NCBI GenBank assembly: GCA_021845985.1
Contig: JAJZES010000007.1
Location: 1 to 64,000 of the forward strand
DNA: 64,000 nt
Direction of reading: 5' to 3'
Source: Pseudomonadota bacterium
GTDB taxonomy: Bacteria; Pseudomonadota; Alphaproteobacteria; Acetobacterales; Acetobacteraceae
The stretch's first letter is position 1, and the number at the start of each line of letters is the position of its first letter. Below are positions 11,138 to 18,715 of the stretch, piece after piece. The notes beneath the pieces are model-generated. The model did not search any database and was not told the DNA's origin. It was given only the letters and a program-made list of their open reading frames with translations. A program made the translations under genes and the position numbers.

Positions 11138-13939
11138 TCACGGCATCTGAAGAAACCGCCGCGTCTCCGCCACCGCCTCGGCCAGCCCGACGCGGCGCGT
11201 CTCGACGCCGGGCGGGAAGGCGGACAGCAGCCGGCTCGGCGTCTGCCGGTCGAGCAGGATGAACACCCCGCGATCGGTGGCGCTGCGGATCAGCCGCCCG
11301 AAGCCCTGGCGCAGGCGGAAACGGGCCAGCCGGTCGTCGAAGGTTTTCGGCGCGCCGTCGGAGAGATGGATGCGCCGCTCGCGGTGCAGAATGTCCGGGC
11401 GCGGCCAGGGCACCCGCTCGAACACCACCAGCCGCAAAGCGCGGCCGGGAATATCGACGCCGTCGCGCATCGCGTCGGTGCCGAGCAGGCAGCTCGCTTC
11501 CTCGGTGCGGAACACATCGACCAGGGTGGCATTGTCCATCGCATCGACATGCTGCGCCAGCAGCGGCAGCCCGGCCGCCTCCAGCGCCGGGGCGATGCGC
11601 GCCTGCACCGCGGCGAGGCGGCGGATCGCCGTGAACAGCCCGAGCGCACCGCCGCCGGCGGCGAGGAACAGCGCCCGATAGGCTCCGGCCAGCGCGTCGA
11701 TGTCGCCGGGCGCCAGGTCGGTGACGACGAAGGCGCGGGTCTGCGCCGCGTAGTCGAACGGGCTGGCGACGGCGACGCGCAGGGCGGGCGCCGGCAGATG
11801 CGCCGCCCCGGCGCGCGCCTCGGCCGCCGCCCAGGCGATCTCGGGGTCGTCCTCACCGGCGTCGCGCAGGGTGGCCGAGGTGACCAGCATCCCATGCGCC
11901 GGCGCCGCCAGCGTCGCCGCGAACGGCACGGTGGGGTCGAGCCAGTGGCGGTGCAGTCCGACATCGCTGTCGCGCCCGCCCTCCTGGCCGCTCAGGCCGC
12001 GCCGGTCGATGCGGACGAAATGCACATGCGTCGGCCGCATGCCCGGCACCGGCGGCGCGGCGGCGACGCTGCGCAGCATTGCCTGCCATGCGGTCAGCGG
12101 GTCGGCGGCGCGGCGGCGCAGGGTGCGGCCGATCGCCTCGATGCGGCTGCGCTGGCTTTCCTCCAGCGTCTCGGCGCCCGCATCGAGCCGCGCGGCGAGG
12201 CGTTCGATCAGCGTCGCAATCGGCGCCGCCAGCCGGGCCAGTGCGCGGCCGAGAGCATCGGCGGCGTCCGCCACCTCGGGCGCCACCGGATGCAGGTCAC
12301 ATTCCAGGGCGAAGGGCCCGGGTTCGCCGCCGCCCTTCTGCCGCGCCAGCACCTGCCGGCGCAGCGCCCGCAGCAACGCCTCGGTCGGGTTGATCCGGCC
12401 CGGCTCCGACCCCGCGGCCTCTGGCGCATCATCGACCAGCCGCGGTGCCCAGCCGGGGCCGGGCAGGGCGCGGGCGGCCTGCAAGGTCGCCTCCAGCGGC
12501 GCCTGCAGCTCGGGTGCGTCGGCGACCAGGTCCTCGATGCGGCGCTTGAGACCGCGCGCGCGTGAGCGCATGCCCTCGGCGCCGAGCAGCCAGCGGCGCA
12601 GCTCCGCCGCCTCCGCCCCCGACAGCGTCGCGGCGAAGGCGGCGTCGGCGGCGTCGAACAGATGGTGGCCCTCGTCGAACACGTAGCGCAGCGGCACCGT
12701 CGCATCGTCGATGCCGCCCCAGGCCGCCTGCGCCATCACCAGTGCGTGATTGGCGACGACGAGATCGGCGCCGCGGGCGCGGCGGATGGTGTGTTCGACG
12801 AAGCAGCGCTTCCAGTGCGCGCAGGCGGAATGGATGCATTCGCCGCGGCGGTCGGCGATGCCATAGAGCAGCCCGGCGCCGAACAATTCGGCGAACCAGC
12901 CCGGCAGATCGCCGCCCGAGAGGTCGCCATCGGCGGTCGCCAGCACCCAGCGGGCGATCAGGCCGAGCGGCACCGGCGCCGCGCGGGCGTTCACCGCATC
13001 CTCCAGATTGAGCAGGCAGAGGTAATTTTCTCGCCCCTTGCGCACGACGACGCGGCGGCGGCGCTCCTGCGGGTCGGGGTAGAGGCGCGCCAGTTCGCCG
13101 TCGATCTGGCGCTGCAGATGGCGGGTATAGGTGGAGACCCAGACGGCGGCGCCGTTGCGCTCTGCCCACAGGCTGGCCGACGCGATGTAGCCGAGCGTCT
13201 TGCCGGTGCCGGTGCCGGCCTCGGCCAGCACCGCATGCGGCGCGCCGCGGCGTTCCCGCGCGGCGAAGGCGGCGGCGACGGCGGCGGCATAGTCGGACTG
13301 GCCCGGACGCTGTTCGGCGCCCGGCCCGAGCATCTCGGCGAGTCGGGCGCGCGCCTCGGCCGGATGCACCGGATGGGTGGAGGGCGGCGGGGCAGGGGCG
13401 ACCTCCTCCCATTCCGGCAGATGACGCCACGGCCGCAGCGCCGCCGGCTCCGCTGCCGCGCCCGGCGCGCCGAGCGCGGCCAGCACGAACGGCGCCCAGC
13501 CCCAGCCGGCGCGGCCCATCTGCGCCGCGAGGCCGGCGGCGTCGCGGTTGAGCGGCGCCGCGCGTTCGGCGCGCAGTTCGGCCAGCAGGTCGCGGACCAT
13601 GCCGGGCAGGGCGGCGGCGGCGGCCTCGGTGGTGGCGGGCGGCGGCAGATCGAGCGCCAGCGCCATGCCGCGCGGCGTCGGCGCCACCGGCCGGGCCGGA
13701 CGGACGAAGGCATAGAGTTCCAGCAGATCGAGCGCGCCGCCCCCGGCAAGGCCGAGCCGGCGCAGCGTCGCCGGGGCATGCACCAGCAGCGGCGGCGCCA
13801 TGCCGCGCAGCGCGTGCCCGGCCTCCGCGGCCGGCAGGTCGCGCAATTCGCCCTCGCTGGTCAGGATCACGGCGCGGCCGGTGCCGGCGACCACCGCAGG
13901 CGCGTCGGGCAGGAGCAGACGCAAGGCGGGCTGCGGCAT
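11138..13939 (-). CDS. DinG/XPD-type ATP-dependent DNA helicase
   Basis: A 933-residue superfamily 2 helicase. Walker A is EAGTGTGKT (near residue 265), and motif II is DEGH within FDEGHHLFDAAD, the DinG/YoaA form of DEAH. Four cysteines between these (YLCLL, then GECIHSACAHWKRC) fit the Fe-S cluster of XPD-like helicases. Motif VI is QGFGRLIRS near the C-terminus. The N-terminal 200 residues are a family-specific extension, not an exonuclease. Presumed 5'-3' unwinding of damaged or structured DNA. The ATG at 13939 is 61 bases from the divergent lysyl-tRNA synthetase gene. Confidence 0.9.
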   Translation of the reverse strand: MPQPALRLLLPDAPAVVAGTGRAVILTSEGELRDLPAAEAGHALRGMAPPLLVHAPATLRRLGLAGGGALDLLELYAFVRPARPVAPTPRGMALALDLPPPATTEAAAAALPGMVRDLLAELRAERAAPLNRDAAGLAAQMGRAGWGWAPFVLAALGAPGAAAEPAALRPWRHLPEWEEVAPAPPPSTHPVHPAEARARLAEMLGPGAEQRPGQSDYAAAVAAAFAARERRGAPHAVLAEAGTGTGKTLGYIASASLWAERNGAAVWVSTYTRHLQRQIDGELARLYPDPQERRRRVVVRKGRENYLCLLNLEDAVNARAAPVPLGLIARWVLATADGDLSGGDLPGWFAELFGAGLLYGIADRRGECIHSACAHWKRCFVEHTIRRARGADLVVANHALVMAQAAWGGIDDATVPLRYVFDEGHHLFDAADAAFAATLSGAEAAELRRWLLGAEGMRSRARGLKRRIEDLVADAPELQAPLEATLQAARALPGPGWAPRLVDDAPEAAGSEPGRINPTEALLRALRRQVLARQKGGGEPGPFALECDLHPVAPEVADAADALGRALARLAAPIATLIERLAARLDAGAETLEESQRSRIEAIGRTLRRRAADPLTAWQAMLRSVAAAPPVPGMRPTHVHFVRIDRRGLSGQEGGRDSDVGLHRHWLDPTVPFAATLAAPAHGMLVTSATLRDAGEDDPEIAWAAAEARAGAAHLPAPALRVAVASPFDYAAQTRAFVVTDLAPGDIDALAGAYRALFLAAGGGALGLFTAIRRLAAVQARIAPALEAAGLPLLAQHVDAMDNATLVDVFRTEEASCLLGTDAMRDGVDIPGRALRLVVFERVPWPRPDILHRERRIHLSDGAPKTFDDRLARFRLRQGFGRLIRSATDRGVFILLDRQTPSRLLSAFPPGVETRRVGLAEAVAETRRFLQMP

Positions 13940-14000
13940 GCCGGCACTATAGGGCGGCCGAGCGATTGACCAAGCCATGCCCGGTCCATAGCTTGCCCGG

Positions 14001-15569
14001 ATGGCCGAAACGCTTCGTAACACGCCGCCAAAAGCATGGCCGTTCCAGGAAGCGGCGAAGCTCGCCGCCCGCGCGCCCGAGACCGCCCTGTTCGAGACCG
14101 GCTATGGCCCGTCGGGCCTGCCGCATATCGGCACCTTCGGCGAGGTGGCGCGGACCAGTTGGGTGCGTCACGCCTATACGGTGCTGACCGGCCGCCCCTC
14201 CCGCCTGCTGGCGTTCAGCGACGACATGGACGGGCTGCGCAAGGTGCCGGACAATGTGCCCAACAAGGAGATGCTGCGGCCGTTTCTCGGCCGTCCGCTG
14301 ACCCGCATCCCCGATCCGTTCGGCACCCATGACAGCTTCGGGGCGCACAACAATGCCCGGCTGCGCAGCTTCCTCGACGGGTTCGGCTTCGACTACGAGT
14401 TCGCCTCGGCGACGGCGTATTACGCCGCCGGCCGGTTCGACGCGGCGCTGCGCCGGGTGCTGGAGTGCCACGCCGAGATCGTCGCCGTGGTGCTGCCCAG
14501 CCTCGGCGCCGAGCGGGCGGCGAGCTATTCGCCGATCCTGCCGATCCATCCGCGCAGCGGCATCGTCATGCAGGTGCCGATCGAACGTGCCGACGCCCAG
14601 GCCGGCACCGTGGTCTGGCGCGATCCCGACAGCGGGGCGTTCATCGAGACCGCAGTGACCGGCGGCGCCTGCAAGCTGCAATGGAAGGCCGACTGGGCGA
14701 TGCGCTGGCACGCGCTCGGCGTCGATTACGAGATGTCGGGCAAGGACCTGATCGATAGCGTAACGCTGTCCGGGCGGATCTGCCGCATCCTCGGCAGCAC
14801 GCCGCCGGTCGGCTTCACCTACGAGCTGTTTCTCGACGAGCACGGCCAGAAGATCAGCAAGAGCCGCGGCAACGGATTGTCGGTGGAGGACTGGCTGCGC
14901 TATGCGCCGCCGGAGAGTCTGGCGCAGTTCATGTTCAACGCGCCGCAGCGCGCCAAGCGGCTCTATTTCGACGTCATCCCCAAGGCGACCGACGAATACC
15001 TCGCCAATGCCGAGAAGGCGCGGGTGCAGGAGGGCGCCGACGCGATGGCCAACCCGGCCTGGCACATCCATGCCGGCAGGGTGCCGGAGAGCGCCCATTC
15101 GCCGCTCTCCTTCGCCATGCTGCTCAACCTCGCCAGCGTGGTGAATGCCGAGACGCCGGATATTCTGTGGGGCTTCATCCGCCGCTACACCGGCGCGGCG
15201 CAGGCCGAGACGATGCCGTTCCTGGCCGGGCTGGTCGGCTGTGCGCTGGCCTATTACCGCGACTTCGTGCGCCCCGAAAAACGCTATCGCGCCGCCGATG
15301 CGGTCGAGCGGGCGGCGCTTGCCGACCTTGCGGCGGTGCTGGCGGCGCTGCCCGCGGGCAGTCCGGCCGAGGACATCCAGAGCGAAATCTACAGCGTCGG
15401 CAAGCGCCACCCGTTCGCCGAGCTGCGCGCCTGGTTCGGCTGCCTCTATCAGGTGCTGCTCGGCCAGAGCGAGGGGCCGCGCTTCGGCCAGTTCGTGGCG
15501 CTGTACGGCCTGGCCGAGACGGTGGCGCTGATCGAGACCTCGCTCGCCCGGCCGGACGCGGCGGCCTGA
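14001..15569 (+). CDS. lysK: Lysyl-tRNA synthetase, class I
   Basis: Charges tRNA-Lys with lysine. The 522 residues show the Rossmann fold signature HIGT (residues 42-45) and the KMSKS-type loop KISKSRGNG (from 284), which identify the class I enzyme of archaea and many alphaproteobacteria rather than class II LysS. Other family segments: [32 protein letters not shown] and GKDLIDS. It begins 61 bases from the divergent helicase gene. A truncated MprF-like gene follows after 16 bases, which would use the same lysyl-tRNA pool if it retained lipid aminoacylation. Confidence 0.95.
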
Positions 15570-15585
15570 CGGGGCGGACGCTGCC

Positions 15586-17607
15586 GTGGGCACGCCGCGC
15601 GATGGGGGCGGATATGCACGCTGGCTGCGCCACGCCCCGGCGGTGCTCGGCGTGCTGCTGCTGGTCGGCGCCGTCTATGTCGTGCAGCGCGAGTTCCGCA
15701 GCCTGCGCGTCGAGGACATCCATCGCGCCCTGACGGCGATCCCGCTGCGCGCGCTGGTCATCGCCTTCGGCTGGACGCTGGTGGCCTATGGCGTGCTGAC
15801 GTTCTACGACCGGCTCGGCACCCTCTATGCCGGGCGGGCGGTGAGCTACCGCCGCGTCGCCTTCGCCTCGTTCTGCGCCTATGCGCTGTCGCATAATCTC
15901 GGTTTCGCCGCCGTCTCGGGGGCGGCGGTGCGCTACCGGCTGTATGCCCACTGGGGGCTGACGACGGCGCAGATCGCCCGCGTCATCGCCTTCTGCTCGC
16001 TGACCTTCGGCCTCGGCGGCATGGCGCTGGCCGGGCTGATCCTGGTGATCGAGCCGGGATCGGTGCCGTTCCTCGGCGATCATGTGCCGCGCTGGGTGAT
16101 GTATGTCGGCGCCGCGGTGCTGTGGGGCATCGACATCGCCTATGTCACCGCCGCGCGGGTGTTCCGCCGCTTCCAGGCGTTCGGCCACACGATCGAGCTG
16201 CCGGGGCTGCGCATGGCGCTGGCGCAGGTGTTGCTGGCGACCGCGGATGTCGCGGTGACGGCGGCGATCTTCTACGCCCTGCTGCCGCCGGCGCCGGGGC
16301 TGAACTTCATGCGCTTCGTCGGGGTTTATCTGGCGTCCTATTCGGCTGGGCTGCTGGCCACCCTGCCGGGCGGCATCGGCGTGTTCGACGGCGCCATGCT
16401 GCTCGGTCTGGCACCCTATCTCGATGCGCCGCGCATCGTCGGCGCCATCCTGGTGTTCCGGCTCTATTATTACATCATTCCGCTGTTCCTGGCCGGCAGC
16501 CTGTTCGCCGGCAACGAGTTCCTGCTGCGCGGGCGGCTGCTGCTGCGGCGCGGCGACGGGCAGTCGATCACCAGGCTGGCCGAGCCGGATTTCGCCGTCG
16601 CCGCGGCGACCGGGGCGGTGGCGCTGTGCGGCTTCCTGCTGCTCAGCCTCGGCGTGCTTGAGCAGCGGCCGGATTTTTCCTGGATCGATGCCGACTTCGC
16701 CGCGGTGGCGGCGCAGGCCGGAGAGTTCGTGCCGTCGCTGATCGGTGCCGCGTTGATGGTGCTGGCCGGGGCGCTGTCGCAGCGCGTCAACCTCGCCTGG
16801 AGCGCCACCATCATTTTGTTGCTGGTCGCCGCCGCCTTCACTGTGGCGCAGAGCGAGCCGCTCTGGGTGCCCTGCGTGCTGGTGCTGGCGGCGCTGCTGG
16901 TGGCGCCCTACCGGCGGGCGTTCTACCGCCATGCGCGGCTGCTGGCCGGGCCGCTGGATGCGGCGACGGCGCTGCCGCTGTTTGCCCTGGTGGTCTGCGT
17001 GCTGGCGCTGGCGACGTTCGAGCGGCATGTCCGCTGGCTCGCCGACGACAGTTTTTGGGAGGTCATTCTCTCGCCCGACGTGTCCAATTCGCTGCGCGCC
17101 TCGGTGGCGCTGACGGTGGTGCTGGCGCTGGGCGCGATGTGGCGGCTGCTGCGCCCGCGCCGGGTCGGCTGGCTGCCGTGGAACGCCGAGCAGCGGCTGC
17201 GCTACGCCGCGCTCGGCGGCATGCCGCCGGCGGTGGCGGAGGGGATCGTCTGGGGCGAGGCGGAGCGCGCCGGCATGCCGTTCCGCCGGCTCGGCCGGGC
17301 GCTGGTGGCGCTGGGCGACCCGGCGGGGGCGCAGAGCGACCTCGTCTCGGCGGTGTGGCGGCTGCGCGATCTGGCGCGTCAGGAGGGGCGGGCGCCGGCG
17401 GTGTGGCGGGCCGGGCCGGAGCTGCTCGCGGTCTATGCCGATCTCGGCCTGACGGCGCTGCGGCTCGACACGGCGGGCATGCCGCTCGACGGCAATATCG
17501 ATCCGCGCGCGCTGGCCGGGGCCGCGGATACGTTTCTGGTCTGTCAGGCCGAGCGCGACCTGCCGGGGCTGCTGGCGGCGCTGCGGCGGCTCTCGGTCAC
17601 CGCATAG
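15586..17607 (+). CDS. MprF-like membrane flippase with truncated synthase domain
   Basis: A 673-residue membrane protein. Residues 20-330 form the UPF0104 / lysyl-phosphatidylglycerol synthase transmembrane region (FASFCAYALSHNLGF, LLATLPGGIGVFDG, RLYYYIIPLFLAG). More helices follow to about 520. The C-terminus starts like the DUF2156 aminoacyl-lipid synthase (ALGDPAGAQSDLVSAVW, ELLAVYADLGLTALRLD) but ends about where the first of its two GNAT folds ends. Full MprF is about 850 residues. Lipid flipping may remain; lysyl transfer is doubtful. Start GTG at 15586, 16 bases after the class I LysRS. No frameshifted remainder is seen downstream. Confidence 0.8.
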   Translation: MGTPRDGGGYARWLRHAPAVLGVLLLVGAVYVVQREFRSLRVEDIHRALTAIPLRALVIAFGWTLVAYGVLTFYDRLGTLYAGRAVSYRRVAFASFCAYALSHNLGFAAVSGAAVRYRLYAHWGLTTAQIARVIAFCSLTFGLGGMALAGLILVIEPGSVPFLGDHVPRWVMYVGAAVLWGIDIAYVTAARVFRRFQAFGHTIELPGLRMALAQVLLATADVAVTAAIFYALLPPAPGLNFMRFVGVYLASYSAGLLATLPGGIGVFDGAMLLGLAPYLDAPRIVGAILVFRLYYYIIPLFLAGSLFAGNEFLLRGRLLLRRGDGQSITRLAEPDFAVAAATGAVALCGFLLLSLGVLEQRPDFSWIDADFAAVAAQAGEFVPSLIGAALMVLAGALSQRVNLAWSATIILLLVAAAFTVAQSEPLWVPCVLVLAALLVAPYRRAFYRHARLLAGPLDAATALPLFALVVCVLALATFERHVRWLADDSFWEVILSPDVSNSLRASVALTVVLALGAMWRLLRPRRVGWLPWNAEQRLRYAALGGMPPAVAEGIVWGEAERAGMPFRRLGRALVALGDPAGAQSDLVSAVWRLRDLARQEGRAPAVWRAGPELLAVYADLGLTALRLDTAGMPLDGNIDPRALAGAADTFLVCQAERDLPGLLAALRRLSVTA

Positions 17608-17683
17608 CGGCCGGCCTGACCGCAAGGCTTGCCGCGCCGTGCCGGGCCATCCACATCGCGACAGGACGGACGGAGACGGCGTG

Positions 17684-18715
17684 ATGCGGCTTTCAGTGCT
17701 TGACCAATCGACGGTGGTGACCGGCCGCTCGCCGGCCCAGTCGATCCGCGAGAGCCTCGACCTGGCGCGGCATTGCGAGGCGCTCGGCTATCACCGCTAC
17801 TGGCTTGCCGAGCACCACAATTCCGCCGCTGTCGCCGGCGCCGCGCCGGAAGTGCTGATGGCGGCGATTGCGGCGACGACGCGGCGCATCCGCGTCGGCA
17901 GCGCCGGGATCATGCTGCCGCATTATTCGGCGCTGAAGGTCGCCGAACAGTTCCGCGTGCTGGAAGCCATCGCCCCCGGCCGCATCGACATGGGCCTCGG
18001 CCGCGCCCCCGGCTCGGACGGCATGACGGCGCATGCGCTCAACCCCAATGCGGCGACGGCGGCCGAGCATTTCCCGGCACAGGTGCGCGACCTGCTGAAC
18101 TGGGTCGGCGGCACGGCGCTGGTCGAGGGCCACCCGTTCCGCGACATCATCGCCCAGCCGGCCGGGCCGGGCGCGCCGGAAGCATGGATTTTGGGCAGCA
18201 GCGACTATGGCGCGCAGGTGGCGGCGCATTTCGGCCTGCCGTACTGCTTCGCCCATTTCATCACCGACGGGCACGGTGCGGCGGAGGCGATCGCACTCTA
18301 CCGTGAGCTGTATCGGCCAAGCGCGCGGCATGCGGCGCCGTATGTGTCGGTCTGCGTCTGGGCGCTGGCGTCCGACAGCGAGGCGGAGGCGGAGCGGCTG
18401 TTCACCTCGCGCGCGCTGTGGCGGCTGTATCGCGACCGCGGCAGCTTCGTCGCCACCCCCTCGCCCGAGGAGGCGGCGTTGCACGCGTGGGCGCCGGCCG
18501 AGCAGGCGCGGGCGGAGACGCTGCGCCGGCGCGCGGTGATCGGCACCGGCGCGGCGGTGGTGGCGCGGCTCGACGCGCTGGCGCGCACACTCGGCGCCGA
18601 TGAGATCGCGGTGCTGAGCACGCCGCATGACGCGGCGGCGCGGCAGCGCTCCTATGCGCTGATGGCGGCGGCTGCCGGGCTAGGGACGGAACAGGTCGCG
18701 GCTGCCGCCGAGTGA
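17684..18715 (+). CDS. LLM-class flavin-dependent oxidoreductase (luciferase-like)
   Basis: A 343-residue bacterial-luciferase-fold monooxygenase. Family features: LSVLDQS start, RYWLAEHHN near residue 45, GSAGIMLPHYSALKVAEQFRVLEA, and GRIDMGLGRAPG. This subgroup (MsnO8-like) uses reduced FMN and oxygen; the substrate is unknown. The ATG at 17684 has GGAG 9 bases upstream; the frame to 17639 lacks family similarity. Its 3' end overlaps a small membrane protein gene on the other strand by 36 bases. Confidence 0.9.
   Translation: MRLSVLDQSTVVTGRSPAQSIRESLDLARHCEALGYHRYWLAEHHNSAAVAGAAPEVLMAAIAATTRRIRVGSAGIMLPHYSALKVAEQFRVLEAIAPGRIDMGLGRAPGSDGMTAHALNPNAATAAEHFPAQVRDLLNWVGGTALVEGHPFRDIIAQPAGPGAPEAWILGSSDYGAQVAAHFGLPYCFAHFITDGHGAAEAIALYRELYRPSARHAAPYVSVCVWALASDSEAEAERLFTSRALWRLYRDRGSFVATPSPEEAALHAWAPAEQARAETLRRRAVIGTGAAVVARLDALARTLGADEIAVLSTPHDAAARQRSYALMAAAAGLGTEQVAAAAE

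Follow-up and report, generated by a model that had tools for sequence, protein, structure and literature searches.

The first 64,000 nucleotides of contig JAJZES010000007.1 (assembly GCA_021845985.1, family Acetobacteraceae), hereafter the window, contain a gene for a class I lysyl-tRNA synthetase (LysRS) that is directly followed by a gene for a short MprF-like protein. Our analysis suggested, with a probability of about 0.64, that the two genes represent a conserved unit of the Acetobacteraceae, composed of class I LysRS and a derived, synthase-dead MprF flippase or scramblase with a docked GNAT lid, and that their linkage is inherited. The sequence anatomy, conservation, and linkage, together with the lack of a second synthase-domain match and of the known essential synthase residues, were computed directly. 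The two genes and the parts of the MprF-like protein lie at the following window positions (TM, transmembrane helix; AF2, AlphaFold2).

14001–15569, + strand: class I LysRS, 522 amino acids (aa), ATG start (models NF001968 and PF01921)
15586–17607, + strand: short MprF-like protein of 673 aa, GTG start, separated from LysRS by 16 bases (model NF033480; PDB MprF chains 9goe, 7f47, and 6lvf by sequence and fold)
15586–16521, + strand: putative flippase/scramblase domain (TM1–8), residues 1–312 (PF03706 match; 59% identity; pocket residues D221, D268, R292, and Y295)
16522–17145, + strand: TM9–14, residues 313–520 (matched to MprF structures; 39% mean identity)
17173–17472, + strand: part matching PF09924 (model positions 28–99 of 298; AF2 confidence; 52% identity over residues 561–632)
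17473–17532, + strand: variable linker, residues 630–649, where GNAT fold 2 was presumably lost from inside the protein (alignment and superposition spans)
17533–17601, + strand: closing strand and helix, residues 650–672, presumed equivalent of the strand-helix that ends full MprF (AF2, superposition, and profile)

The LysRS open reading frame (ORF) scored 815.1 bits against NCBIfam model NF001968 (cut-off 648) and 402.2 bits against Pfam PF01921, and its translation showed the HIGH- and KMSKS-type motifs HIGT and KISKS, identifying it as a class I LysRS. The ORFs and the NF001968 score confirmed the claim of an earlier note on this stretch that a class I LysRS lies 16 bases upstream of an MprF-like gene. 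The MprF-like protein scored 331.8 bits against the equivalog model of the bifunctional lysyl-phosphatidylglycerol (lysyl-PG) synthase/flippase MprF (NF033480; cut-off 600), matching model positions 6–625 of 841, and its nearest solved relatives by sequence were the MprF proteins of Pseudomonas aeruginosa (PaMprF), Rhizobium etli, and Rhizobium tropici (RtMprF). By its sequence, it is a member of the MprF superfamily by descent that falls short of bifunctional MprF.

The short form and its pairing with LysRS recurred throughout the nearest relatives. Among the 36 nearest family genomes, the source genome included, the short form was found in 32, and all 32 copies followed LysRS on the same strand at a spacing of −4 to 192 bases (16 bases or less in 22); 31 of these 32 ORFs were closed and encoded 633–712 aa (start codons chosen by script). 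The four other genomes included two without a LysRS match as well (G004 and G011), one with LysRS at a contig end (G006), and one with an intact LysRS and no MprF match in the 4.7 kb taken behind it (G027). A broken LysRS gene in G027 was considered and rejected, because the flagged TGA proved on translation to be the gene's own stop. In an overlapping set of named contigs, which comprised the best 80 of 482 relatives, LysRS was upstream on the same strand in 79 of the 79 loci with room (the 80th had no room upstream), and 74 of the 80 ORFs were closed, all encoding 662–702 aa. Most record titles read Acetobacteraceae, Rhodospirillales, or Proteobacteria, and Rhodopila and Acidisphaera were among the genera named. 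Two contigs titled 'Solirubrobacterales' (L045) and 'Acidobacteria' (L117) carried the Acetobacteraceae-type pair, and these record names are probably wrong; in L117, approximately 1.7 kb lay between LysRS and the MprF gene. The earlier note had named two findings that would undo its reading, a pairing not conserved in relatives and a sequencing error concealing a full synthase domain. The pairing was conserved, and an error or frameshift was excluded because the same length recurred in relatives and a six-frame search found no other match to the synthase domain LPG_synthase_C (PF09924).

We extended the search to 249 family genomes and to a class sample of 289 genomes, 4 of the family and 285 of others, using alignment A1 (31 rows) and scoring at most four candidates per genome (at most six in the family LysRS search). 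An MprF match was found in 231 of the 249 family genomes and a LysRS match in 242. All 7 genomes without a LysRS match were among the 18 without an MprF match, as expected if both genes fall in one assembly gap. In the 285 genomes of other families, 22 matches from 20 genomes covered the flippase and the GNAT half, and all lay in frames of 841–918 aa; no short frame joining the flippase to a half domain was matched in these genomes. The remaining class matches were limited to the flippase region (query end at most 349), apart from a 598-aa frame without TM1–8 (G338) and a weak fragment (G039). A LysRS match was present in 18 of the 20 genomes with full-length MprF, one of them weak (G292); the two genes shared a contig in 7, with a closest distance of 48 kb (G509), and were on different contigs in 11, so that full-length MprF lay near LysRS in 0 of the 18 genomes with both. 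Thus, in the genomes sampled, the half form and its pairing with LysRS were seen only in the Acetobacteraceae.

The domain anatomy of the MprF-like protein differed from both complete synthases and stand-alone transport domains. PF03706 (LPG_synthase_TM) matched at model positions 2–301 of 302 with 33.0 bits (gathering score 33.4). PF09924 covered model positions 28–99 of 298 only, compared with 2–297 in the full-length protein L034, and a complete tandem-GNAT synthase was not found; nor is the protein a transport domain only, because TM9–14 and GNAT fold 1 are also there. An AF2 model built from 70 sequences had a predicted local distance difference test score (pLDDT) of 83.5 and superposed on 9goe with Z 30.9 and on 6lvf with Z 29.5. 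In blocks of ten residues, pLDDT was 92–97 over residues 531–610 and 86–87 over residues 611–630, and the tail was predicted as a strand (650–653) and a helix (655–672) with block means of 70–86. In VIA-align, the output of which gives the first and last superposed residues only, residues 526–673 spanned the synthase domains from start to end (4v36 residues 523–848, Z 15.2; 4v34 residues 546–874, Z 14.5). Modelled alone (pLDDT 92.4; predicted template modelling score 0.86), the GNAT part superposed on MprF chains with Z 10.8–15.7, ending at chain residue 847–874 in 11 of 11 rows; single-domain acetyltransferases also matched it, with Z up to about 8, a common level.

The origin of the tail was further addressed by sliding its profile against 86 windows of an alignment of eight full-length MprF sequences. 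Five C-terminus windows ranked 1–5, with probabilities of 23–36%, followed by the region just after GNAT fold 1 with 17%. A first alignment (AERD with GERD) had placed the tail soon after GNAT fold 1; that placement was dropped, given its second rank in the profile comparison and the superpositions reaching the C-terminus. Because the last ~25 residues match the C-terminal end of the full synthase in the predicted structure and, weakly, in the profile, the missing part would be internal. These data indicate that GNAT fold 2 was excised from inside the protein and that fold 1 was kept and is closed by the synthase-terminal strand and helix, the closed fold being a prediction. The view in the earlier note that the protein ends after the first GNAT half therefore held for the lost second half and not for the position of the loss: the structure prediction that it had proposed returned a single GNAT fold, with a predicted closing strand-helix instead of a plain truncation.

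Next, we compared the residues required for lysyl-PG synthesis. In Staphylococcus aureus MprF, exchange of K547, K621, E624, D731, R734, or K806 abolished lysyl-PG production (PMC2774229). Their counterparts were located through motif spacing (D-K, K-L-G-E, D-L-M-R, and F-K-x-K) rather than through a direct alignment to S. aureus MprF. By this mapping, K547, K621, and E624 correspond to E552, R626, and T629, while D731, R734, and K806 fall in the deleted part, so that none of the six essential residues remains. Among 70 relatives, position 552 was Asp in 67 and Glu in 3, position 626 was Pro in 63, Arg in 3, and Lys in 1, and position 629 was variable, with Glu in 6. A six-frame search of the whole genome with stops read through gave no second LPG_synthase_C match at E ≤ 0.001, and a separate DUF2156 protein, which had been suggested as worth seeking, was likewise absent from the genome at this threshold. 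Loss of lysyl-PG synthesis in the MprF-like protein is thus supported by these sequence comparisons, and calling it a lysyl-phosphatidylglycerol synthase is probably wrong. Of the earlier proposal that synthesis was lost and only flipping left, the first part was supported by the absent essential residues and the absent second match, and flipping itself is what we infer from homology. An additional, almost complete LPG_synthase_C match was confined to G010, G015, and G020 among the 36 nearest family genomes. The extra MprF of G010 (L035; C57:36107–38519) occupies two consecutive frames (509 and 474 aa) that divide it into a flippase part and a synthase part that is nearly complete; this represents either a split gene or a frameshift.

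In contrast to the synthase residues, the pocket of the flippase domain was largely kept. The RtMprF report (PMC8131360) lists among the pocket residues Asp234, Arg304, Tyr307, Glu280, Asn117, Ser238, and Tyr303, which we mapped by hand on printed alignments and on the columns of A1 and of a second alignment, A2 (70 rows). Asp234 corresponds to D221 (Asp in 70/70 of A2; 29 Asp and 2 Glu in the 31 rows of A1), Arg304 to R292 and Tyr307 to Y295 (each 70/70 in A2 and 31/31 in A1), and Glu280 to D268 (Asp in 70/70 of A2 and 30/31 of A1). In A2, Ser238 was replaced by T225 (67/70), Asn117 by H103 (70/70), and Tyr303 by F291 (69/70). The sequence therefore contains a flippase domain with lysyl-PG pocket residues, of which D221, R292, and Y295 are kept and D268 stands for Glu280. 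PaMprF is characterized as a promiscuous scramblase (PMC11980842), and, judged by sequence, the MprF-like protein is most likely a lipid flippase/scramblase. Ornithine lipid was considered as its specific cargo and rejected: 59 of 60 genomes had the OlsB-type family PF13444, among them each of the 9 examined without the MprF-like protein, so that it is uninformative on cargo. A search for AcvB/VirJ (PF06057) gave no match, and its controls gave no match either.

The docking of the GNAT part was examined in the same manner. In RtMprF, fold 1, which is joined to TM14, forms a first docking interface with the flippase and fold 2 forms a second, according to the same report (PMC8131360). The first interface was kept at R448 (Arg456; 70/70), D595 (Glu611; 69/70), and D619 (Asp635; 63/70). 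Mean identity among 32 family members was 59% over residues 61–312, 39% over 313–520, 52% over 561–632, and 29% over 633–673. The ratio of nonsynonymous to synonymous substitution rates (dN/dS) against five relatives was 0.23–0.34 for the flippase, 0.24–0.52 for the half-GNAT, and 0.35–0.60 for the tail, where dN was 0.45–0.58.

Further reduced forms were found within the family. The gene that follows LysRS in genome G130 and in genera g93 and g114 codes for a flippase without further domains (TM1–8), and TM9–14 are missing together with the GNAT part. All six flippase-only relatives examined are transport domains only: L134 (G249), L135 (G167), L136 (G117), L138 (G130), L147 (G177), and L149 (G254), from two of four sampled genomes of g93, three of four of g114, and G130. 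Their ORFs comprised 300–322 aa when measured to the stop codon from a point 10 residues ahead of the match, and all six lay directly behind LysRS. Because the linkage survives in these relatives, it is independent of the GNAT part, which argues against LysRS–GNAT contact as its reason. In a flippase tree of 50 rows, the half and flippase-only forms composed one group (100/99), apart from full-length MprF and other flippases. The tree implied 3 changes between the half and flippase-only forms, with bootstrap values unsettled and some branches long; several origins of the flippase-only form were considered and not adopted, as a single origin was not rejected (approximately unbiased test, p-AU 0.147). 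The flippase-only ORFs apparently derived from the half-GNAT form; G130 carries the same genus code as the half-form genome G008. At one locus (L141; G162:C1:2161500–2167000), the short-MprF frame was broken after approximately 390 residues, and the genus mates G088, G210, and G247 have 701–715 aa.

Based on these data, the unit may have arisen as follows. GNAT fold 2 would have been excised in frame from MprF, leaving a product that no longer makes lysyl-PG and that, to judge from homology and the retained pocket residues, would move lipids across the inner membrane as a flippase/scramblase. GNAT fold 1, which was kept and is predicted to be re-closed by the synthase-terminal strand and helix, would cover the flippase as a lid on its cytoplasmic face, presumably held through part of the known contact between fold 1 and the flippase and stabilizing or gating the flippase. 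The link with LysRS would probably be the legacy of an ancestral operon in which a full-length MprF used lysyl-tRNA, with no present mutual need.

Several observations weigh against this explanation. Flippase activity is deduced from homology and kept pocket residues, and the PF03706 score is just below the gathering score, as it is for full-length L034. Other fold 1 docking residues of RtMprF differ (Asp604 to S588, Arg639 to T623, Arg136 to H122, and Thr145 to A131), and the loss of fold 2 took away the second docking interface. For the tail, superpositions that include it were loose (root mean square deviation of 3.7–4.4 Å), row 9j8q stopped at model residue 137, and the Foldseek alignments to the MprF rows covered just 75–135 out of 153 residues, with ranges not reported. 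The profile–profile probability was at most 36%, and in a single-sequence search with the tail profile, the C-terminus was the top-ranked region in only 3 of 8 full-length proteins and outscored every shuffle in just one. Finally, 11 of the 249 family genomes had a LysRS match and no MprF match: all four sampled genomes each of g78 and g120, G027, G006 (LysRS at the contig end, as above), and G172 (66% complete). The occurrence of such genomes, including all those sampled from g78 and g120, indicates that the MprF-like protein is dispensable.

The series from half form to flippase-only form to absence would also fit an MprF in decay, in which the flippase is useful, the half-GNAT is a slowly eroding remnant, and LysRS is a neighbour by descent. 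The poor conservation of TM9–14 and the fast evolution of the tail agree with such erosion; however, half-GNAT identity (52%) is near that of the flippase (59%), and length is kept within 662–702 aa in the 74 closed ORFs, so that we regard decay as unlikely. The same conservation of the half-GNAT, which is under purifying selection and more constrained than expected of a dead remnant, can be taken together with the family-wide linkage to propose that it actively senses or docks LysRS or lysyl-tRNA, coupling flipping to tRNA charging or tethering LysRS to the membrane. This appears quite improbable, given that the linkage persists with the flippase alone at six of six loci and that the likely lysyl-tRNA site of full MprF (PMC8131360) is the cleft between folds 1 and 2, of which fold 2 is gone here. 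The more specific form of this idea, in which the re-closed single GNAT fold is a regulatory lid that senses lysyl-tRNA or LysRS, gates the scramblase, and thereby ties membrane remodelling to tRNA charging in the Acetobacteraceae, is very improbable.

Restored synthesis was also considered, either through a partner protein supplying GNAT fold 2, as the earlier note had proposed, or through two half-GNATs of an MprF dimer forming one active site. Precedents come from two reports: parts of S. aureus MprF are able to function in trans (PMC2774229), and RtMprF forms a dimer (PMC8131360). Nevertheless, the sole LPG_synthase_C match in the genome is the MprF-like protein itself, leaving no candidate partner, and the fold 1 residues for synthesis are replaced, an essential Lys (as mapped by spacing) being Asp or Glu in all 70 rows; we consider this explanation scarcely credible. 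The inherited unit of LysRS and a synthase-dead flippase thus remains our preferred interpretation.

With regard to the surroundings of the unit, a DinG/DEAD-type helicase-like gene lies divergent to LysRS (11138–14023, − strand). A relative of this helicase was near LysRS in 31 of the 54 named-contig loci with room, making it a frequent and not a constant neighbour. The downstream flavin oxidoreductase was rejected as a member of the unit, as only 3 of the 71 named-contig relatives offering 1200 bases of room had it. A scan for promoters and terminators over positions 13800–18000 found none, where 0.1 promoters and 1.4 terminators were expected by chance.

The half form shares with the bifunctional MprF/LpiA proteins (RtMprF, 6lvf/7duw; PaMprF, 9goe; R. 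etli MprF, 7f47) TM1–14, GNAT fold 1, the pocket Asp, Arg, and Tyr, the Arg of the TM10–11 loop that contacts fold 1, and the closing C-terminal strand-helix, which is predicted here. It differs from them in having neither GNAT fold 2 nor the six essential synthase residues, in the pocket changes of Asn to His103, Tyr to Phe291, and Glu to Asp268, and in the linkage to class I LysRS, which was found for no full-length MprF in the 18 other-family genomes with both genes. LysX carries a class II LysRS. It likewise combines an MprF-like part and LysRS in one genetic unit, as described in PMC9437257, whereas here the two are separate proteins encoded by two ORFs, the synthase is incomplete, and LysRS is of class I. 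The earlier analogy with LysX, in which LysRS feeds a lysyl-lipid synthase, does not apply, since no synthase remains and the linkage persists with a flippase alone. YbhN, a stand-alone MprF transport domain according to PMC11980842, exemplifies proteins that also have the transport domain without the synthase; the half form additionally keeps TM9–14 and GNAT fold 1, and the flippase tree set it apart from the five included stand-alone flippase matches of other families. No published description of the half form was found in the full-text literature searched, which leaves out most subscription journals.

In the half form, flippase and synthesis are naturally separated while a single GNAT fold persists, and this form may help to probe the effect of the docked synthase domain on the flippase. 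The 'mprF' gene of Acetobacter fabarum is annotated as phosphatidylglycerol lysyltransferase, and the altered fly persistence of one of two transposon mutants was ascribed to lysyl-PG translocation in PMC10269862; if this gene encodes the half form, another lipid would be needed to explain the mutant. An MprF-type match is present in 231 of the 249 family genomes, and all loci examined behind LysRS (32 half forms and 6 flippase-only forms) are without the synthase half. An annotation as lysyl-phosphatidylglycerol synthase would then mislead for the whole family.

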